Shown: positions 1,331 through 9,130 of the stretch, one piece after another
How the letters are laid out: every line of letters begins with the position of its first letter
Position numbering within the stretch: position 1 is the first letter of the stretch
Virus record (IMG/VR): IMGVR_UViG_3300009187_000041
Span: 1 to 37,307 of that record
DNA from: a virus
Length of the DNA: 37,307 bases
Reading direction: 5' to 3' (one strand)
The notes under the pieces: generated by a model
Told to the model about the DNA's origin: nothing
What the model saw: the letters and a program-made list of their open reading frames with translations, nothing else
The model's database searches: none
Translations under genes and position numbers: made by a program

Positions 1331-2314
1331 TTACTTTTTATTCTTCTTAAGTTGTGCAGGATCTGCAGTAGCAGCCACACCGATCTGAGCAAGATCGACC
1401 AACGAACCGCCAAACACATACATGCCTACGTGCTGCAATTGAATCCATGGGCAGAGCCATACCTTCATACCAGCATTACGTACCCACTGACAGAACATAT
1501 AGTCTTCAGACAGATAACGTTCAGAGTATTCAGGACGATCACGGGCAGTGCCCTTGGCATCTTCAATAAACGCCAAAAGATCTTGGTTTGTTGCTTCTGG
1601 ATTCTTATCAATGAATGCCTTAAGTTCAGGTACTAACTGCGCACGCTTAGCATCGATAGGAGTATCGAAGAATGCCATGATATAACGTGAACCATCAAAG
1701 TGTTCTGTGCGAACATGATCTGGCTTATACGACTGCTGAGGATATGTTTCAGCAAACTTGTCAAAGGTATTACGACGGATCATCATGAATCCGGTACCAG
1801 CTTCAAGCACTTCGACCGGCTCACCAAGAGGAATCTCCGTAGCTCCGCCAGCAGGATTAAAGACGTAGTCGCCTACATACTTCTCAAGCTGATTAGGATC
1901 TTCATCAGCAAATCCCTTATCAACAGCATGCTTGATCTTTTCCCAGCTGATGCACTTCTTAGGATAAGGACCTGCGATGATGTCGTACTGGTCATCATCT
2001 GGATTCTCTGACTGTAGAGCCATCAGAGCAATAACATCGTTGGCATTAAAGCCGATATCAGAGTCAATGAACATCAGATGCGTATCACCAGAACGAATGA
2101 ACTCATCTGCACAATAGTTACGTGCACGAGTAATTAGCGACTCATTAAACAGGAAGTAGAATCTTACCTGAATTCCATAGTGAGTGCAAAGAGCTGAGAG
2201 GTCGGCAATAGAGCGGGCAAACATGCCCTGACACTGACCGCCATACATTGGAGTCGCGATAAAAAGCTTACGTTCGCGAAGCTTCTCGATTGGTACGTTA
2301 ATTTCAATTCCCAT
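1331..2314 (-). CDS. Putative GT-A family glycosyltransferase
   Basis: Predicted to transfer a sugar from a nucleotide-sugar donor; acceptor unknown. The 327-aa product starts with LFIATPMYGGQCQG (residues 17-30), a nucleotide-binding first strand. It then has ITRARNYCADEF (about 61-72) and HLMFIDSDIGF (79-89), whose DSD at 84-86 is the metal-binding DxD of GT-A enzymes. A later GTGFMMIRR segment also fits this fold. T4 alpha- and beta-glucosyltransferases that modify hydroxymethylcytosine are GT-B enzymes, so this is not their homologue. Its position in a block with dCMP hydroxymethylase still makes modified DNA one candidate acceptor, alongside virion or host glycans. The gene starts 2 bases after the DUF3310 gene ends, consistent with co-transcription. 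Confidence 0.7.
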   Translation of the reverse strand: MGIEINVPIEKLRERKLFIATPMYGGQCQGMFARSIADLSALCTHYGIQVRFYFLFNESLITRARNYCADEFIRSGDTHLMFIDSDIGFNANDVIALMALQSENPDDDQYDIIAGPYPKKCISWEKIKHAVDKGFADEDPNQLEKYVGDYVFNPAGGATEIPLGEPVEVLEAGTGFMMIRRNTFDKFAETYPQQSYKPDHVRTEHFDGSRYIMAFFDTPIDAKRAQLVPELKAFIDKNPEATNQDLLAFIEDAKGTARDRPEYSERYLSEDYMFCQWVRNAGMKVWLCPWIQLQHVGMYVFGGSLVDLAQIGVAATADPAQLKKNKK

Positions 2315-2316
2315 AA

Positions 2317-2760
2317 TTAATCCTTATATTCAGTATCATGTACATGGAGTTGCATTATTGCATAGTGGATAACCTTAAGCAGGTCCTTCCGCCATTCAGC
2401 GGGATCACCCTTACGACCGTATCGTTGGGTGTACTTCATCATATTCCCAATATTGAAACCGGTACCATGACCAGCATCAATGATGAATTCAGTTGCCTGG
2501 AATTTATTTCGGGAATAGTGCTGCTCGTAAGTAGCATCGACGTAAGACTGGATCTCTTTCAGAGTTTCGCCTTCATTGTATTTATAATCGATTAAATGCT
2601 TTGCTTGAATTCCTGGAATAAAATTATATGCTGGACCATTTAATCCTGCTGGAACTTCAATTTGTGGTCCACCACTTGGTCCGTTCTCAGTAATTACTGA
2701 TGGAAAACCTATAATACTAGAAGGAATAAAATCATTAGAAACTGTTGAATATTTACTCAT
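2317..2760 (-). CDS. DUF3310-family protein
   Basis: Function unknown; the family is common in phages and usually lies among nucleotide-metabolism genes. Of 147 residues, the C-terminal half (about 65-145) matches the DUF3310 pattern: HYSRNKFQATEFI, then GFNIGNMMKYTQRYGRKG, then DLLKVIHYAIMQL, the family's GN.IKY..R hallmark followed by a lysine-rich helix. The N-terminal 60 residues are low-complexity, rich in Pro, Gly and Ser, and unassigned. The start is TAATG-coupled to the stop of the SGNH-like gene upstream. Confidence 0.7.
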   Translation of the reverse strand: MSKYSTVSNDFIPSSIIGFPSVITENGPSGGPQIEVPAGLNGPAYNFIPGIQAKHLIDYKYNEGETLKEIQSYVDATYEQHYSRNKFQATEFIIDAGHGTGFNIGNMMKYTQRYGRKGDPAEWRKDLLKVIHYAIMQLHVHDTEYKD

Positions 2761-3797
2761 TATATAAAGAAGTCCTCAATAGTTGATGGTTTATGTTCAG
2801 GCAAGCCGCTCCACTTACGACCCTGCCAATGCGGATAGGAATTACGGGATAAATGGACAGACTTTGGCTTCTCCATGTGAGCAAAGTCTAGTTCACCCTT
2901 GTCGTTCATGAGATAGTCGACCCACTTGACGAACCTGACATTGGTGTCACGTACTAGTTCTTCCATTACATCCCTGAAGATGAGACGGATCTCATTACGA
3001 TCTTGCATAGTACCATAGAAAGAAGTACCCTTATAGTATCCGGTCTTAGGAAGTGCACGAGATTCATGTTCGATCGGAAGTAGTTCGTATGCAGACACAC
3101 TGATACCACCGTCAGACAGCTCGTTGAGTTGATCGAAGTATCTCTTGGCAAGATCCTTTGTGGCCTGACGGGGATCAGGTTGACGGCACAGATGATGGCG
3201 TACGTCGATGTTGCCGAAGTAGAACTCTGCAATCTCATGGTGAGGTTCGATGAACGACTGAAGACCTTCCTTCAGTGCACCATGCAGAGTCTTGAACGGA
3301 ACAGAGTTGACAAACCAGCCTGGACGGTACATGCAGATAGCATGACTGTCACCTGCAACAACCTTGGTTGTCGGAGTCATCTGCCTAAGAGTCTTGGCAG
3401 TATTCTCAATACGCTTCAGGTTTTCCCAGTCGACCTTTGCCCAGTCAGGATGGATCTCACCCTTCATACGTGGCTCAAGCATCTCAGAGTATTTAGGATG
3501 ATCGATCCACAGTGAGAAGACATTGCCCTTGAACTGAGAGTACCTAATCAGGTTGTCGATGTTACCGTAGTTCTTCATTCCACCGAATAGGTTAAGAGAT
3601 CCACCCCAGTCATTGCCGTGGTAGACACAAATACTATCGAATGAATTGATATCAGGATGTATGTCACCGGTACGGTCTAGATGTACGGTGTACCCATTCT
3701 CCTCCAGTTGGTTCGCATAGATTGCAGCCTGAGCCGCACGATGCGAATGGATGTTAGAGGAGATGTGGGTGAATGGTGAGGCTACAAGTGTTTTCAT
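2760..3797 (-). CDS. SGNH/GDSL-hydrolase-like protein
   Basis: Possible esterase or acyl-transfer type enzyme; substrate unknown. With the ATG at 3797 the product is 345 aa (a GTG at 3806 would add three residues). A central block I-like motif VVAGDSHAICMYRPG carries GDSH at about 149-152. FYFGNIDVRHHL (about 193-204) resembles the GxID.R.H version of block III, and SVHLSRNSYP near 313-322 supplies the terminal histidine. The N-terminal 120 residues (VYHGNDWGG and LFGGMKNY) are family-specific and unrecognised. A TGTACA-class promoter ends 7 bases before the ATG and no clear Shine-Dalgarno is present, so a leaderless message is conceivable. The upstream PLP-like gene stops at 3806 as TAGTG. 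Confidence 0.5.
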   Translation of the reverse strand: MKTLVASPFTHISSNIHSHRAAQAAIYANQLEENGYTVHLDRTGDIHPDINSFDSICVYHGNDWGGSLNLFGGMKNYGNIDNLIRYSQFKGNVFSLWIDHPKYSEMLEPRMKGEIHPDWAKVDWENLKRIENTAKTLRQMTPTTKVVAGDSHAICMYRPGWFVNSVPFKTLHGALKEGLQSFIEPHHEIAEFYFGNIDVRHHLCRQPDPRQATKDLAKRYFDQLNELSDGGISVSAYELLPIEHESRALPKTGYYKGTSFYGTMQDRNEIRLIFRDVMEELVRDTNVRFVKWVDYLMNDKGELDFAHMEKPKSVHLSRNSYPHWQGRKWSGLPEHKPSTIEDFFI

Positions 3798-3804
3798 ATT
3801 ATTC

Positions 3805-3833
3805 ACTATACATCAAGTGTGGCATAATGTACA
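3805..3833 (-). promoter_or_regulatory. TGTACA-class promoter upstream of the SGNH-like gene
   Basis: TGTACA at 3828-3833, 17-base spacer, TATAGT at 3805-3810. The site overlaps the 3' end of the PLP-like gene and is preceded by an A tract on the minus strand. The -10 ends 7 bases before the ATG at 3797. Confidence 0.6.
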
Positions 3834-4708
3834 TCTTTTTTTGGCCAGTCTCGGTAAGAATCTACACGGTCATAGATGGTGGGATCGTTAAGGACCGGTT
3901 CAGCACCGACGTTCCAGAAGAGGATGTTGCGGTCGGTATTCTTAGGAATGTACTTCCATACCTTACCGTCATATGTATCTATGCACGGAAACGGTGGCAG
4001 GTTCTCAGGCTTCTCGCTTTGTTGGAATGCCATCGGTTCAGAGATAACATCAGCACGACCAAGTTCACCGGCCTTCAGGTTACGTGATACAGCAACCGAA
4101 TGGAACTTGGCATTCGGCCATGCAATCTGCATTGCTCTTGAAAGAACGCCAGTTGAGATGGCCACGTAGACTTCATCAGGTGCTTCGATCTTAGATGCAG
4201 CCTTGACAATACCAGCAGTCACAAGTTCATGTTTCAAACCAAGTGGCACAAAGAATGCATCATCATTCTGGTCTGCCCAGTCGTTGGCAATCTTGTTCAG
4301 GTTCGGCATCGCAGCAATACGATGGAATGATGCCTCTGCACCTTGTTCGATACAACATGCCTGATGATGTGAGATGCGTTGAGCAGAAGGCATGAACAAC
4401 TTTACCTTCTTATCATAACGTTTAGCAACATCAAGGATAGACACACCAGCAAGACCGGTACGTGGCTGCACATACACAATGGTCGACTGATTGATCCTTG
4501 ACATCAGGCAGTCACCACCACGAACCTTTGTTCCTGTGATAAGATCGTCACGAACACAACGGACACCGTCATGCACAGTTACAACTGGATCTGGATATGG
4601 ATCTGTCCATGTGGCAGCAAGATCTAGATAATAGTCCTTGGCCTCTTGCCAAGATCTGTAGCCGACATCCTGGTTATATCCATCGATTACGTGGTTGTTA
4701 TGACTCAT
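3806..4708 (-). CDS. Fold-type-II PLP-dependent enzyme-like protein
   Basis: Tentatively related to the tryptophan-synthase-beta / D-cysteine desulfhydrase / ACC deaminase fold, enzymes acting on amino acids. In 300 aa, CVRDDLITGTKVRGGD (residues 51-66) aligns with the KRDDL..GNKxR motif whose lysine binds PLP, making Lys61 the candidate. A segment TGLAGVSILDVAKRYDKKVKLFMP (about 84-107) looks like the following Rossmann helix and strand. STGVLSRA (185-192) could be the phosphate-binding loop. The usual SNH after the lysine helix is not evident, so activity may differ or be lost. It overlaps the upstream gene by 4 bases (ATGA) and sits inside the candidate base-modification block, where an amino-acid-processing enzyme would make sense. 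Specificity cannot be inferred. Confidence 0.45.
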   Translation of the reverse strand: MSHNNHVIDGYNQDVGYRSWQEAKDYYLDLAATWTDPYPDPVVTVHDGVRCVRDDLITGTKVRGGDCLMSRINQSTIVYVQPRTGLAGVSILDVAKRYDKKVKLFMPSAQRISHHQACCIEQGAEASFHRIAAMPNLNKIANDWADQNDDAFFVPLGLKHELVTAGIVKAASKIEAPDEVYVAISTGVLSRAMQIAWPNAKFHSVAVSRNLKAGELGRADVISEPMAFQQSEKPENLPPFPCIDTYDGKVWKYIPKNTDRNILFWNVGAEPVLNDPTIYDRVDSYRDWPKKDVHYATLDV

Positions 4709-5853
4709 AGTGCCTTCACCATTTCTTTGTACTGCTCGACAGAGATGCCTGCCTGCTTAAGTATATAGTCGTCTGATGGGTGAGACGTCATACCGTTGAA
4801 GGTCTTTACCAGACCGAGGTCGAGCATTGCTCTTTGTCTTCCGAAGGGATGATCCTTGATGCGACATGACGACCAGACACTATCAAAGCAGAGATGGTCG
4901 TAGTCCGAACCTGGCTTAACGTAATTTTCAACCCATCGGATGAAGTCGCAGCATACATCCTCTGCGTTGTAGGGGTAGGCGCCTGTATCGGCATAAATCT
5001 TCTCCATCACCTTGTCTAGGAATAGTTCCTGTTTCATTCTGTCTGTGTTGTTGGCCAGATACGAGATACACTCGACTGCGTTCGTACCGTAGTAGAATGG
5101 ACTATCGAGGTTGCAGTACTCAGGATACCAGTCGCCGATGTCGGCGACCACTGCAGCATACTGGAACTTGTATTGACGAAGCCCATTGGCAACGTTCCAT
5201 GCTAACATCCAGTCACCGATCTCACGAAGATCTCTCTTGGTGTTACTGCCTTGAAGCCAGTCAGCAAGTTCTCTAGCTAGTCGTGGAGCATGCTCAGATA
5301 GGTAGTAGTCTCCACCCTTCTTGTAGTTTGCACCAGCAGGAACCTTAGGGAATGCAGGGAACTGATAGCCGACAGATGTATAGAATGGATACGGATGGTG
5401 GTTCACACGACGAACCATATCCTCGATCGACATACACTCGTATAGGTGAGGAAGTAACGTGTTGTGATAACCTGATGGCTTCTTCGAGTAGTTAATGCCA
5501 GATCCTGTTACACGATGCAGGATAAAGATATACAACCATTCAGGTAGACTGAAGTCGACATGCTTGCCCGTCCAGTCACGTGCGATGTACCCGCGCTCCC
5601 GTGTGTGGAAGCCTTGTTCCATTTTGTGGTAATATGGGTGTTCAGGAGTCCATCCATAGAAGACATCGTTAACGATCTGTGAGAAGCCGGCAAACTTACG
5701 TTCAACAACGTCGTACAGTTCTACGTTTTCGAGGAGGTCATCGCCCATCTGGCTTTCAGCATAGGCAACAGTCCCCAGGTTGCACTTGGCTTGCTGATCT
5801 TTAGCCAGTTCAAAATACCGAAGATATTCGTCATAATATTGTGTCAGTTCCAT
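4705..5853 (-). CDS. Helical protein resembling the aGPT-Pplase / amino-acid:DNA transferase group (tentative)
   Basis: I do not recognise this 382-aa protein with certainty. It is predicted mostly helical, with strongly patterned conserved-looking blocks: LPEWLYIFILHRVTGSGINY (residues 103-122), a YTSVGYQFPAFPK stretch, a GDYYLSEHAPRLARELA helix, QYAAVVADIGDWYPEY, and SPFYYGTNAVECISYLA. The late segment YNAEDVCCDFIRWVENY resembles the (V/A)E..LCEFDKY helix of the HMUDK/aGPT-Pplase superfamily. That superfamily acts on hydroxymethylated pyrimidines in phage DNA, from kinases to amino-acid:DNA transferases. Context supports this: dCMP hydroxymethylase, a UDG-like protein, an Nmad1 protein and a PLP-like enzyme are adjacent. 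The start overlaps the UDG-like gene by 10 bases. Family membership needs a profile search. Confidence 0.4.
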   Translation of the reverse strand: MELTQYYDEYLRYFELAKDQQAKCNLGTVAYAESQMGDDLLENVELYDVVERKFAGFSQIVNDVFYGWTPEHPYYHKMEQGFHTRERGYIARDWTGKHVDFSLPEWLYIFILHRVTGSGINYSKKPSGYHNTLLPHLYECMSIEDMVRRVNHHPYPFYTSVGYQFPAFPKVPAGANYKKGGDYYLSEHAPRLARELADWLQGSNTKRDLREIGDWMLAWNVANGLRQYKFQYAAVVADIGDWYPEYCNLDSPFYYGTNAVECISYLANNTDRMKQELFLDKVMEKIYADTGAYPYNAEDVCCDFIRWVENYVKPGSDYDHLCFDSVWSSCRIKDHPFGRQRAMLDLGLVKTFNGMTSHPSDDYILKQAGISVEQYKEMVKAL

Positions 5854-6197
5854 AGATATTCCATTGCTAAATCGAGTTGATGTCTCTCATACTCGGGGTT
5901 ATTTAGCTGTCTGTTCAGGGGAGATGGGTGAGGCATCATATGATGTGGGATATCGTCCATAGCCGATGATACGAAACCACCGAGGCATATGATCTTGTTA
6001 TAGCCTCGGCAGCATTCATTAATCCAACTATAATCTATATCCGACTTTTTGTACACACCTTCTTTGTGTATAACATTCGTGAATGAGAATTGGTTACAAT
6101 TAAGTTCATCCATCCATTTATGGAGTCGGATTAGTGTAGGATTCTTTTTCTTTTTAAAGCAAGGATTGATGCCAACTACTAGTACATTATGCTTCAT
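5844..6197 (-). CDS. Minimal uracil-DNA-glycosylase-superfamily protein
   Basis: Predicted nucleotide-base-recognising protein of the UDG fold. From the ATG at 6197 the product is 117 aa; longer in-frame starts only read the dCMP deaminase region out of frame. VVGINPCF (residues 7-14) matches motif A of the MUG/TDG-type families (GINP), and MPHPSPLNRQ (88-97) matches motif B (HPSPLxR), which inserts into the DNA minor groove. SFTNVI (38-43) and IICLGG (69-74) fit the central strands. At 117 aa it is much shorter than the usual 160-230. The start overlaps the end of the deaminase gene by 11 bases, implying coupling. In a phage carrying hydroxymethylcytosine it might remove or bind deaminated or modified bases. 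Confidence 0.6.
   Translation of the reverse strand: MKHNVLVVGINPCFKKKKNPTLIRLHKWMDELNCNQFSFTNVIHKEGVYKKSDIDYSWINECCRGYNKIICLGGFVSSAMDDIPHHMMPHPSPLNRQLNNPEYERHQLDLAMEYLWN
6027..6055 (-). promoter_or_regulatory. TGTACA-class promoter inside the UDG-like gene
   Basis: TGTACA at 6050-6055, 17-base spacer, TATAGT at 6027-6032. It lies within coding sequence, about 175 bases upstream of the ATG at 5853, so it would drive the aGPT-Pplase-like, PLP-like and following genes. Confidence 0.5.
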
Positions 6198-6630
6198 GAC
6201 ACAAATACATAACGCCAGCTTCCTGGAACATCTGCTTGGTAAGTAGCATCGAATCTCTCCAGAAGTCAGGAATGTCACTAGGATATTCCATGATCACCTT
6301 CTTGATACCAACTTGGATAATGCCCTTGGCACACTCAGAACAAACAGGAAGGCCGGTAACATAGAGGGTTGCACCGTTAAGTGACACACCAGAGTTGCAT
6401 GCATTATAGATGCAATTCATTTCACCATGTACTACATACTTATACTTATCCTCGCGAACATCATAACGAGCAGTTGTATCTTTGACACCGCGTGGGAAAC
6501 CGTTGTATCCTTGACTCAGGATCTGACCTTTGTCACCAACAGCAACGGCACCTATTTGTTTAGACGGATCCTTAGACCAGGTTGCAACATTCTTGGCAAT
6601 ATCCAAGTAACGCCGTGTCCATTTATTCAT
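6187..6630 (-). CDS. cd: dCMP deaminase
   Basis: Zinc enzyme converting dCMP to dUMP, feeding dTMP synthesis. The 147-aa product has the cytidine-deaminase signature: VVHGEMN (His68-x-Glu70) and PVCSECA (Cys97-x-x-Cys100) as zinc ligands and proton-transfer glutamate. The N-terminus MNKWTRRYLDIAKNVATWSKD is typical of phage dCMP deaminases. T4 Cd is 193 aa; this one is shorter. The start is TAATG-coupled to the dCMP hydroxymethylase stop, so the two dCMP-consuming enzymes are translated together. Confidence 0.92.
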   Translation of the reverse strand: MNKWTRRYLDIAKNVATWSKDPSKQIGAVAVGDKGQILSQGYNGFPRGVKDTTARYDVREDKYKYVVHGEMNCIYNACNSGVSLNGATLYVTGLPVCSECAKGIIQVGIKKVIMEYPSDIPDFWRDSMLLTKQMFQEAGVMYLCHEA

Positions 6631-7280
6631 TACTTTACCTTATCAAAGTGTCTAGAGTACACATGCAGGTTGCCGACATTCCAGATGATCTTTGGCCATG
6701 TCTTAAGATGAAGATCATCAGATAGTTGATTGGCAACATAGGACTGCCATGCATAATCATTACGATATCCGAAGACTACATCATTAGAACGCATCTGTAC
6801 TATGGCAATCAGCTGACCATCACGAATCATATACTGAACTGCATTAGTGCACATGAAGTCTGACATACCGTTATGGTTATAGTCATGCCACATAGTAGGA
6901 CGAGTATAGATCATCACAGCACGACGACTGTTAGGATTCTTTGTCAGTTCGTCGAGCACATTAAGATACTGGAATCCGTTGTCTTCACTGTAGATTGCCC
7001 AACCATAGTTAGAGTTGATCTTACCTTCAGACGAAGCAATCTGTTCCCAGATAGCCGGAGTCTTGCCAGGAATATCCTTGACATATAGAGACATCGACTT
7101 ATACCACTCAAGTTCACGCTGAATGTAGTCATCATTTACGTCACCGAAGATTGATGACTCGTCAGCTTCGAAGCATGCACCGATCATCTCGATAGTCTTA
7201 ACACCAGTCTTGTCAGTGACAAACCTACCCTGCTTCAGTTCTTCGATGAAGTATTCACGGATATGTTCAACTTTAAACAT
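6630..7280 (-). CDS. 42: dCMP hydroxymethylase (gp42-like)
   Basis: Thymidylate-synthase-fold enzyme that uses methylenetetrahydrofolate to make 5-hydroxymethyl-dCMP. From the ATG at 7280 the product is 216 aa and parallels T4 gp42 over nearly its whole length: TDKTGVKTIEMIGA, RELEWYKSMSLYVKDIPGKTP, SNYGWAIYSEDN, LHVYSRHF. The nucleophile is Cys144 in SDFMCTNAVQY (T4 Cys148). Asp175 in RNDYAWQ equals T4 Asp179, the residue that selects dCMP over dUMP where thymidylate synthase has Asn. The C-terminal tail is about 25 residues shorter than in T4. The start overlaps the Nmad1 stop as ATGTTTAA; an in-frame ATG at 7313 is less likely. This implies hydroxymethylcytosine in the phage DNA. Confidence 0.93.
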   Translation of the reverse strand: MFKVEHIREYFIEELKQGRFVTDKTGVKTIEMIGACFEADESSIFGDVNDDYIQRELEWYKSMSLYVKDIPGKTPAIWEQIASSEGKINSNYGWAIYSEDNGFQYLNVLDELTKNPNSRRAVMIYTRPTMWHDYNHNGMSDFMCTNAVQYMIRDGQLIAIVQMRSNDVVFGYRNDYAWQSYVANQLSDDLHLKTWPKIIWNVGNLHVYSRHFDKVK

Positions 7281-7638
7281 TCTTTTTTGTTCCAGTTGTT
7301 GCATTTGGTCCAAAATTGATCGGACGATTCAGATAGTCACGAGCAGGATCTTGGCCTTCCATCTTGCCACGAATGTACGAGACAGCAAAGCTGGCATAGT
7401 TGATCAGATCTTTGTAGGTGTCTTCGAGTGATTCGAAGTTAGCTGCAGAGCCGGACTCAAGGAGAGACTGAGCACGAAGCATCTTGCCATGCATTGTGTC
7501 ATGGATCGAGTCTACACCGCGGCGATAGTGCATTGCCTGCACTACGTTTGAGTTGGGGTTCTGATAGTCTTGAGACTTCTTAAGCTGAAGCTCGATGCAC
7601 TCTTGCAGGACTTTTACTGATTCACGTTCATTAGACAT
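7273..7638 (-). CDS. Nmad1 (DUF1599-like) nucleotide-modification-associated protein
   Basis: The domain family was named for its recurrent association with phage nucleotide/DNA-modification genes; its biochemical activity is not established. The 121-aa product has LKKSQDYQNPNSNVVQAM (residues 19-36), a helix with IHDTMHGKMLRAQSLLES, then SLEDTYKDLINYASFAVSYI (about 70-89). This matches the KSxDYG...R...E...DxxxDLxNYA layout of the family. I chose the ATG at 7638, preceded by AGGTGG and forming an 8-bp ATGTCTAA overlap with the gene upstream, over an ATG at 7668 that lies inside that gene. It sits directly before dCMP hydroxymethylase. Confidence 0.65.
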   Translation of the reverse strand: MSNERESVKVLQECIELQLKKSQDYQNPNSNVVQAMHYRRGVDSIHDTMHGKMLRAQSLLESGSAANFESLEDTYKDLINYASFAVSYIRGKMEGQDPARDYLNRPINFGPNATTGTKKNV

Positions 7639-8167
7639 ACTTTTCCACCTTATAATATTTGCCTTCATATTGTGAGGGCATTAATGAATCTAACACATCT
7701 TGAGCATTAAGTACATTGATAAGTTCAAATTGAACAATATCATTTTCTTGAAGAGGACGATCCTCAGGTCGATGCATCCGATAAAAACAATAGTGAGTCA
7801 AGATACCTTTATCAACGCCTTGTTGCACCCACGGGTGGGTTTTCATCTTCTGTTCAGAGACATTATAATAAAGTCGTCCGTCGATGCATTTGAAGTCGAT
7901 GAAGGCTTCGTCGATACGGACGTCATAGACACATGCACCGCCAGATGTAAGATGCTCAGGCAGTGGACCAAGAACGACATTCTTCTTGATGAGCCACTCT
8001 TCGAGGACCAGACAGTCGACGTCTTTGGTGAACTTGAAGTCGTTTCTACCGCCTTGGTTTAGGCGTGACTTCATGTTTTCACGGAGTTGCAGGAATTCTT
8101 TATCGATAACCAGACCAGGCTCGGTTACGGAAAAGACGGCTTTGATTTTTTCTAATAGTTCAGTCAT
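7631..8167 (-). CDS. Conserved phage protein with a possible PD-(D/E)xK-like core
   Basis: Not recognised with confidence. The 178-aa protein has VYDVRIDEAFIDFKCIDGRLYYN (about residues 80-102), where Asp82, Asp91 and Lys93 (DFK) have the spacing of a PD-(D/E)xK nuclease core between strands. VDKGILTHYCFYRM follows as a later helix/strand. An N-terminal SRLNQGGRNDFKFTKDVDCLVLEEWL segment may be DNA-binding. If real, it would be a small endonuclease or a degenerate structural relative. The -10 of a TGTACA-class promoter ends only 6 bases before the ATG. It starts the operon running through Nmad1, dCMP hydroxymethylase and deaminase. Confidence 0.35.
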   Translation of the reverse strand: MTELLEKIKAVFSVTEPGLVIDKEFLQLRENMKSRLNQGGRNDFKFTKDVDCLVLEEWLIKKNVVLGPLPEHLTSGGACVYDVRIDEAFIDFKCIDGRLYYNVSEQKMKTHPWVQQGVDKGILTHYCFYRMHRPEDRPLQENDIVQFELINVLNAQDVLDSLMPSQYEGKYYKVEKYV

Positions 8168-8202: not shown

Positions 8203-8661
8203 TTATTGATTTAACATCGGCATAAAATAATCAATAGATGCTCGTTCGAACATCGGGATCATTGCCACTGGCATATGAGTCATATCGACATAGTCAATGC
8301 TTATGATAAGGTCATCAAGATCATATTCTTCCATTAGTTGACGATACTTGTTACCCGAAGACTCACCAGTAAATTCAGGATCGCGATATGCACGAAGATG
8401 ACGGGTTTGACGATGGGCAATAGACGAAGTTCTGCCTTCCGACTTGCCAATATATAAAACCATTAATTCGCCATCAATTTCGGCCATATGGCGATACACA
8501 CCGCGCTTGAATCGAGCTCGCGATCGATCCATGCCAGAGGTTTCATAATCATATTCATCACGGTATGCGGTGAGGGAGACGTTCTTGAATGATTCAGAAT
8601 CTTGCCATTCGGCTTCGATATCAATTGAGTTAAACAATTCTGCAATTTCAGATAAGCGCAT
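8203..8661 (-). CDS. GIY-YIG nuclease-like protein
   Basis: Probable small nuclease of the GIY-YIG superfamily. In 152 aa, FKRGVYRHM has GVY at 54-56 and VLYIGKSEGR has YIG at 70-72. Arginines follow in HRQTRHL (84-90), and Glu139 in FERASIDYFMPMLN is placed like the catalytic Glu that precedes the terminal P-x-L-N motif. The order and spacing fit a complete catalytic core. No extra DNA-binding domain is visible apart from about 50 N-terminal residues, so it could be a free-standing homing-type, recombination or host-DNA-degrading enzyme. It has its own TGTACA-class promoter and a ribosome-binding site GAAAGG. Confidence 0.65.
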   Translation of the reverse strand: MRLSEIAELFNSIDIEAEWQDSESFKNVSLTAYRDEYDYETSGMDRSRARFKRGVYRHMAEIDGELMVLYIGKSEGRTSSIAHRQTRHLRAYRDPEFTGESSGNKYRQLMEEYDLDDLIISIDYVDMTHMPVAMIPMFERASIDYFMPMLNQ

Positions 8662-8722: not shown

Positions 8723-9130
8723 TTATTTTAGTTTTGTCAACAAACCGTGGTTATTAGCATGGGATGGTGCTTTCCATCCGGGCGGTTTGATGAGGTCCGG
8801 CAACCCAAGAGGATTCGGCCGTTCAGGTTTGATGCCTACCTCCTTAGCAAGGTTAGCACGAAGGACCTTATTCCATGCCTCATATGAATCAATGCCCATT
8901 GCATCTAGTGTACCGATAGCAACAACACAGAGATCGATCAGGCCATCTACGATCTCTTCGGCATCCTTACGCTTAACTGCATTCTTGGTCTCAGTCAATT
9001 CCTCATCAAGAAACGACATACGGAAGTCAAGGAACTGCTTTAGTTTCTCAGCATCAAAGTCATTAACCTTTTCATTGACACCATAGTATGTGTGCATACC
9101 TGCAATGTCACGTACCCAATCTTCACTCAT
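8723..9130 (-). CDS. MazG-like / phosphoribosyl-ATP pyrophosphohydrolase-like NTP pyrophosphatase
   Basis: All-alpha nucleotide pyrophosphohydrolase expected to hydrolyse (d)NTPs or related nucleotides to monophosphates. The 135-aa protein has DFRMSFLDEELTETKNAV with Glu43, Glu44 and Glu47, then AEEIVDGLIDLCVVAIGTLDAMG with Glu59 and Asp62. Together these give the EExxE(n)ExxD metal-binding signature. The C-terminal KPERPNPLGLPDLIKPPGWKAP segment is typical of the phage version. The start is preceded by AAGGAG. Such enzymes recur in T4-like phages, where they may tune nucleotide pools or alarmone signalling. Confidence 0.82.
   Translation of the reverse strand: MSEDWVRDIAGMHTYYGVNEKVNDFDAEKLKQFLDFRMSFLDEELTETKNAVKRKDAEEIVDGLIDLCVVAIGTLDAMGIDSYEAWNKVLRANLAKEVGIKPERPNPLGLPDLIKPPGWKAPSHANNHGLLTKLK

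Follow-up and report, generated by a model that had tools for sequence, protein, structure and literature searches.

The 37,307-base viral fragment analyzed here (record IMGVR_UViG_3300009187_000041; called the window below, at its full length) carries on its minus strand, at 2760-8167, a tight operon in which the starts and stops of neighboring genes abut or overlap. In gene order it encodes an Nmad1 protein, a dCMP hydroxymethylase, a dCMP deaminase, a small protein resembling uracil-DNA glycosylases (UDG), an all-helical protein that we call HEL, a pyridoxal phosphate (PLP) enzyme and an SGNH protein, and it is followed by genes for a DUF3310 protein and a GT-A-like protein (Table 1). The capsid region of the window finds its matches in T4-like phages of Synechococcus and in Stenotrophomonas phage DLP6, and the island is flanked by genes resembling those for gp46/gp47, the sliding clamp (590-1249) and the clamp loader. 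The island is genuine and widespread, has no description in the literature searched, and is a variant of phage hydroxymethylpyrimidine hypermodification. A sequence-only reading of the window had first singled it out as a candidate for hydroxymethylcytosine (hmC) hypermodification; the genes lie at the coordinates given there, all on the minus strand, with the overlaps it had described.

Probable hydroxymethylcytosine synthesis and the conserved cassette

The best solved match of the hydroxymethylase is the T4 dCMP hydroxymethylase 1b49 (E 9e-91, 306 bits). The thymidylate synthase fold, the catalytic Cys and the Asp that replaces Asn177 of E. coli thymidylate synthase are all present, and this Asp, in the motif 'RND', aligns with the Asp of the T4 enzyme. 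It is Asp186 when counted from the TTG start and Asp175 from the internal ATG; the sequence-only reading had used the latter numbering, and the 1b49 alignment bears out its assignment of a dCMP-selecting residue. All 111 homologous hydroxymethylase open reading frames (ORFs) at HEL loci have the Asp. The dCMP deaminase (PF00383, 74 bits, E 7.5e-21; PHROG 174, E 8e-44) and the Nmad1 protein (PF07659/DUF1599, 29.5 bits, above the 25-bit cut-off) likewise proved to be what they had been taken for. In contigs with modified cytosine, PF01503, the family of a pyrophosphohydrolase encoded near the island, co-occurs with hydroxymethylase and dCMP deaminase (PMC8670742). Because the Asp-type hydroxymethylase, the deaminase and the pyrophosphohydrolase make up the gene company of those contigs, homology indicates that the viral DNA very likely contains hmC.

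Table 1. Genes of the island and its neighbors in the window
Feature	Position	Strand	Basis
Hybrid of a β-glucosyltransferase (BGT)-like and an SGNH domain, with a clamp-binding-like tail	2760..3806, ATG at 3797	-	AlphaFold, Foldseek, hhalign, Pfam
Fold-type II PLP enzyme, homologue of the hypermodification PLP enzyme of phage M6	3806..4708	-	PHROG 7093, hhalign, HMM
HEL, all-helical; candidate amino-acid/phosphate:DNA transferase of HMUDK_hel/aGPT-PPlase type	4705..5853	-	Model, Foldseek, motif pair; no profile support
Small putative UDG-superfamily protein with TDG/MUG-like motifs; first gene of the cassette	5844..6278, likely start 6197	-	PF03167 (sub-threshold), conservation
dCMP deaminase	6187..6630	-	PF00383, PHROG 174
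dCMP hydroxymethylase, T4 gp42 type, with dCMP-selecting Asp	6630..7313, likely ATG start 7280	-	1b49 match
Nmad1 (DUF1599) protein	7273..7668	-	PF07659
Uncharacterized protein upstream of Nmad1	7631..8167	-	No Pfam, PHROG or NCBIfam match
DUF3310 protein, flanking, probably outside the cassette	2317..2760	-	PF11753, 31 bits
GT-A-like protein, neighbor from the T4-like backbone	1331..2314	-	PHROG 1574, E 7e-63
MazG/PRA-PH-like NTP pyrophosphohydrolase that may remove dCTP in support of hmC DNA	8723..9130	-	PF01503, E 2e-10

A scan of IMG/VR with HEL returned 109 relatives, of which 80 were kept, and linkage was counted at those HEL loci that had enough flanking DNA. The hydroxymethylase gene lies upstream of HEL in 63 of 63 such loci; downstream, the PLP gene and the SGNH gene are each present in 50 of 50. 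A second helical protein of ∼330 aa, HEL2, is encoded between HEL and the PLP gene in 33 of the 50. Gene order is conserved across ∼80 viral contigs, in which single genes fall to 28-40% identity. Because the order is kept so widely and the linkage is complete, the arrangement is not due to chance, and the earlier claim that a cytosine-type hydroxymethylase stands beside a gene set of the hypermodification type gains an obligate association. For HEL2, 410 relatives were found. In the 80 of these that were kept, HEL and the PLP gene nearly always adjoin it, as does the SGNH gene where the fragment extends far enough.

The block UDG-HEL-HEL2-PLP-SGNH also occurs in an unrelated neighborhood (L236-L247, L288), showing that this unit moves on its own. 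The UDG gene adjoins HEL in these displaced cassettes too, and the DUF3310 gene is absent beside them. The unit is therefore UDG-HEL-(HEL2)-PLP-SGNH, with the DUF3310 and GT-A genes excluded. In two genomes with a displaced cassette (128 and 160 kb), a gene of the thymidylate synthase family lies at another place, ∼14 kb away in the larger genome. In L241 the displaced cassette sits beside an Hsp20-like gene. Across bacterial and archaeal genomes, HEL was found in only four contigs of metagenome-assembled genomes, all with the phage-cassette gene order and assigned to Thermoleophilia, Bacteroidetes, Microbacteriaceae and Opitutales (L296-L299); these are probably phage contigs binned with bacteria.

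The proteins of the cassette

For the PLP enzyme, the fold named in the sequence-only reading was confirmed by PHROG 7093 (E 2e-39), with PF00291 matching below threshold and the PLP-type Lys61 invariant. Profile comparison connected it with the PLP protein of phage M6 (hhalign 98.3%, E 1.3e-14; HMM search E 4.8e-12). The similarity runs along most of the chain and includes the PLP-binding lysine and a shared C-terminal block, 'PFP..YD.K.W...fWN.G'. By sequence, the island enzyme is a homologue of the PLP enzyme of M6 thymine hypermodification, which we take to be a decarboxylase. In M6, the PLP gene overlaps the gene of the amino acid:DNA transferase. The DNA of this phage carries 5-(2-aminoethyl)-deoxyuridine (PMC6449724). 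Other homologues lie in or beside ParB/N6-N4-methyltransferase genes of Erythrobacter and Microcystis phages (L003:2326-4764, L004:4384-6702), which may point to another kind of DNA modification that PLP assists.

The last protein of the cassette, called SGNH-like in the sequence-only reading, has the SGNH fold and, in addition, a BGT domain that had been missed. An AlphaFold model of the 2760-3797 product (pLDDT 93) matched SGNH esterases in the PDB by Foldseek (E 1e-5, ∼195 columns) and, separately, T4 BGT (1nzd/1qkj, E 7e-4). Counting residues from the Met at 3797, the BGT-like domain spans aa ∼1-112 and the SGNH hydrolase/acyltransferase domain aa ∼145-325, followed by the tail KPSTIEDFFI. 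Residues 1-112 are collinear with BGT 1-113 (hhalign prob 95.7%, E 1e-8). Hhalign gave no similarity to the C-terminal, UDP-glucose-binding half of BGT; in the hybrid that half is SGNH by structure. Thus, the N-terminal acceptor domain of BGT is present and its C-terminal donor domain is not. Searched member by member, PF09198 (BGT) matched 8 of 47 proteins and PF00657 (GDSL lipase) 6 of 47, and the protein of the window itself matched PF09198 below threshold (E 1.6e-4). The hybrid keeps N69-L-F71-G-G73 (N and G in 47 of 47) where BGT has N70-F-F72-G-G74, a segment that presumably lies at the flipped base. In the SGNH domain GDSH (149-152), D198 and H202 are invariant and N196 and H315 nearly so; the four blocks of the superfamily, Ser, Gly, Asn and His, are represented by S151 (47/47), G178 (43/47), N196 (43/47) and H315 (46/47).

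The tail of this protein recurs in 192 of 252 SGNH members and in 93 of 3077 other ORFs (3%), by a pattern that was chosen once examples had been seen. It resembles the ends of T4 gp43 (ASLDFLFG) and DLP6 gp43 (ATLDSFFA), and hydrophobic, acidic C-termini of this kind bind the T4 sliding clamp (PMC2988020). We therefore predict that the clamp-binding-like tail is a sliding-clamp ligand. The BGT-SGNH hybrid appears to be new, being undescribed in the papers searched.

A cultured phage has a version of the same protein. ORF233c of Aeromonas phage 44RR (L002:7004-9391) is a BGT-SGNH hybrid with a clamp-like tail, CSLDGLFAI, fused to a C-terminal HMUDK_hel-like domain (profile search in that genome, E 4e-4; hhalign P ∼3e-5). 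Homology searches detected no HEL/PLP partner in 44RR. In cultured Aeromonas T4-like phages the fusion gene stands beside a sodium:solute symporter gene. The BGT domain, the clamp-type tail and the 44RR fusion led us to reject the idea that the protein is simply an SGNH esterase with an unrelated role.

These features also bear on the possibility that the DNA contains plain or sugar-decorated hmC, and that HEL, the PLP protein and the SGNH protein work in some other pathway, for example in the metabolism of nucleotides or of the host envelope. In favor of this reading, glycosylation of hmC is usual among T4-like phages that have the base, a GT-A-like gene is found downstream, and metabolic enzymes often have SGNH or PLP folds. 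We nevertheless consider this explanation improbable, given the obligate linkage to an Asp-type hydroxymethylase, the BGT N-terminal domain, the clamp-type tail and the fusion to HMUDK_hel in 44RR. The downstream GT-A gene reported in the sequence-only reading does exist, but it belongs to the backbone: its homologue in phage DLP6 (59% identity) occupies the same place in a genome without hydroxymethylase or cassette. We rejected it as a part of the island for this reason, which also counts against sugar decoration.

A parallel lineage of islands (L164-L168, L170, L172, L173, L220; for example L166:3834-12178) has the same frame with other contents. Its order is Nmad1, hydroxymethylase, dCMP deaminase and UDG, then an inositol-3-phosphate-synthase-like gene (PF01658; TIGR03450, 292 bits, below the 638-bit equivalog cut-off), after which come nucleoside deoxyribosyltransferase-like or FkbM methyltransferase genes, and further on an HMUDK_hel-type protein, the BGT-SGNH hybrid, DUF3310 and GT-A. 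The protein in the HEL/PLP slot passes the PF18723 cut-off in six of six such records (29.6 bits against 25 in L166). This gene content suggests inositol-derived chemistry on hmC.

HEL itself gave no match in Pfam, PHROG or NCBIfam, and a PDB sequence search with HEL and SGNH profiles yielded nothing useful. Its model is all-helical (pTM 0.73), and Foldseek against BFVD returned proteins named amino acid:DNA transferase; the matches include a relative at 69% identity and a 330-aa protein at 12% (E 1e-3, prob 1.00), with weaker ones to helical proteins of the 5-hydroxymethyldeoxyuridine DNA kinase family (phiRSL1, SP10 and phiW-14 members) and to endonuclease III. These transferase names are automatic labels, which the Pfam profile PF18724 did not reproduce. 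A motif of two parts, in which a G[PT][GN] loop precedes ExxxCx[FLWHY]xx[YFWH], was found in 136 of 149 HEL proteins, 55 of 95 HEL2 proteins, 20 of 36 HMUDK_hel proteins of M6 type and 5 of 59 domains of 44RR type, against none of 927 other ORFs and 3 of 30780 shuffled sequences. Membership of HEL in this superfamily gains indirect support because its slot-mate in the parallel lineage passes the PF18723 cut-off. It is probable but unproven that HEL belongs to the HMUDK_hel/aGPT-PPlase/amino-acid:DNA-transferase superfamily, an assignment that rests on modeled structure and the motif pair. The sequence-only reading had placed HEL in the same group; the BFVD fold matches and the motifs agree with it, but profiles do not, and we rejected HEL as a member of PF18723 or PF18724 that can be recognized by sequence, since neither Pfam nor profile-profile comparison makes the connection.

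In the UDG-like protein, the motifs 'GINP' and 'HPSPxNRxLN', the latter conserved among relatives, agree with the UDG fold first proposed, but PF03167 reaches only 14.5 bits (E 0.039), below the 24.3 cut-off. We speculate that it repairs hydroxymethyluracil (hmU) arising from hmC deamination, or removes faulty adducts.

Proposed route to a decorated hydroxymethylcytosine

We propose that the cassette is a post-replicative hmC hypermodification system that follows an amino-acid/amine route. As an explanation of the whole we regard this as reasonably likely. That the cassette decorates hmC is a claim we hold with good confidence; the amino-acid/amine chemistry in its details is tentative. By homology, the hydroxymethylase makes hydroxymethyl-dCMP, the deaminase and the MazG-like enzyme help to exclude plain dCTP, and hmC is polymerized into DNA. 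Next, the SGNH protein, anchored to the clamp by its tail, might use its BGT-like domain to read or flip hmC at the fork. On the model of aGPT-PPlase/amino acid:DNA-transferase enzymes acting on hmU, HEL (joined by HEL2 in most relatives) could put an amino-acid-derived group on the 5-hydroxymethyl. The PLP enzyme, as in M6, may reshape the amino acid, the simplest change being a decarboxylation that yields an amine, and the SGNH active site may acylate or deacylate the product. The result would be an hmC of amine or acyl-amine type that protects against restriction. Only the first of these steps has strong homology behind it.

Several observations weigh against this scheme. The pLDDT of the HEL model is a modest 70.6. 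The PF18724 (ADDT) profile matched none of 35 HEL members and none of 15 records, and nothing in the window or the HEL records exceeded the curated cut-off of PF18723 (HMUDK_hel). HMM searches and hhalign found no link from HEL or HEL2 to either family, nor did profile-profile comparison connect HEL with the M6, ViI or phiW-14 families. A fold search of the PDB gave HEL no significant match, in disagreement with BFVD; the solved amino acid:DNA transferases of M6 type, 8z2m and 25qc, were not among the matches, the presence of 25qc in the fold library being unchecked. The motif signature is post hoc, written once the families had been seen. The residue aligned with the catalytic Asp100 of BGT is conserved only in part (D in 24 of 47, E in 10, P in 10). 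Most relatives encode HEL2, but the window, a fragment record, does not. HEL has no match in the annotated phage collection, so that the cultured phages there lack it. No radical-SAM or flavin enzyme was recognized beside the cassette, and no activating kinase within it (the P-loop 5-HMUDK was not specifically searched for), leaving the activation step unexplained.

Part of this evidence would fit a decoration of hmC without amino-acid transfer, in which the BGT-SGNH hybrid acylates or otherwise esterifies hmC, using a small-molecule donor that HEL and the PLP enzyme make or activate instead of working on DNA themselves. The clamp-type tail and the DNA-reading BGT domain occur only on the SGNH protein, profiles do not link HEL to DNA transferases, and the inositol-phosphate synthase that fills the slot in the parallel lineage implies that the frame can serve different donors. 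We think this rather unlikely, since the closest PLP enzyme lies in a DNA-bound amino-acid pathway, that of M6, and since the slot-mate of HEL is an HMUDK_hel protein. Far less probable still is that the cassette targets another base, thymine or hmU, with hmC as a separate layer. All characterized HMUDK_hel/AADT (amino acid:DNA transferase) systems do act on hmU (PMC6449724), but no dUMP hydroxymethylase was seen here, every hydroxymethylase that adjoins a cassette has the Asp typical of dCMP enzymes, and the BGT domain comes from an hmC-specific family.

With the amino-acid/amine route, the product might be an undescribed base, an hmC bearing an amino-acid-derived and possibly acylated amine, made through HEL/HEL2 as a new family of helical transferases, the M6-type PLP enzyme and a clamp-tethered BGT-SGNH hybrid, widespread in uncultured T4-like phages and with a sister lineage that perhaps uses inositol chemistry. 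We put this full picture forward as no more than a possible one.

Neighboring genes and comparison with known systems

Some neighboring genes vary among relatives. The uncharacterized protein at 7631-8167 is patchy, being encoded often, not always, upstream of Nmad1. Upstream of the island, at 8203-8661, a small protein without a Pfam match looks by eye like a GIY-YIG-type nuclease. In many relatives a homologue of C5-cytosine DNA methyltransferases (PF00145, motif VCPCAGLS) lies between the SGNH and DUF3310 genes (L061:12087-13286, L055:6737-7933, L166:9100-10314, L335, L341, L361); the gene is not in this window, and it is an odd one for a phage whose cytosines should be hmC.

To our knowledge, the decorations of hmC are mainly sugars and a carbamoyl group, and amino-acid or amine decorations are those of thymine. 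Our literature search, with the primary M6 thymidine papers and the 2013 computational survey outside its range, found no hypermodified cytosine with amino-acid chemistry. If our proposal is true, a cytosine version would widen the chemistry of phage DNA, account for how many T4-like phages from freshwater respond to Type II and Type IV restriction, and supply epigenomics with new tools for tagging 5hmC. The BGT-SGNH hybrid gives a testable function to proteins that have long been listed as hypothetical in 44RR and related T4-like phages of Aeromonas; these phages are in culture and, with their fusion, are a ready laboratory model.

The thymidine pathway of M6 (5-aminoethyl-deoxyuridine, made with AADT, a PLP enzyme and HMUDK_hel) shares with the island a homologous fold-II PLP enzyme, an adjoining helical, transferase-like protein and, as proposed here, the post-replicative decoration of a hydroxymethylpyrimidine. 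It differs in its base, hmU rather than hmC, and HEL and HEL2 cannot be recognized as AADT or HMUDK_hel by profile. The island adds the BGT-SGNH hybrid and the UDG-like protein, and the radical-SAM enzyme and kinase are not seen in the cassette. The 5hmC carbamoyltransferase systems found by MetaGPA (PMC8670742) similarly combine an enzyme that modifies hmC with a group other than sugar and, close to it, an Asp-type enzyme of thymidylate-synthase fold, dCMP deaminase and PRA-PH; however, the modifying enzymes are others, and no carbamoyltransferase was recognized in the island. Arabinosyl-hmC in RB69 and pentose-modified cytosine in Thanatos (PMC6024577, PMC12838424) are non-glucose cytosine modifications of T4-like phages as well, but their chemistry is that of sugars, and no PLP/SGNH/helical cassette is described for them. 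ORF233c of 44RR, a hypothetical protein, has the hybrid and the clamp-like tail of the island protein and differs in its C-terminal HMUDK_hel-like fusion. Finally, hmC glucosylation in T4 has in common with the island a gp42-type hydroxymethylase and a homologous BGT N-terminal domain with its N-x-F-G-G segment. In contrast to T4, an SGNH domain stands where BGT has its UDP-glucose-binding C-terminal domain, and the hybrid would show an hmC-reading domain reused for non-sugar chemistry.

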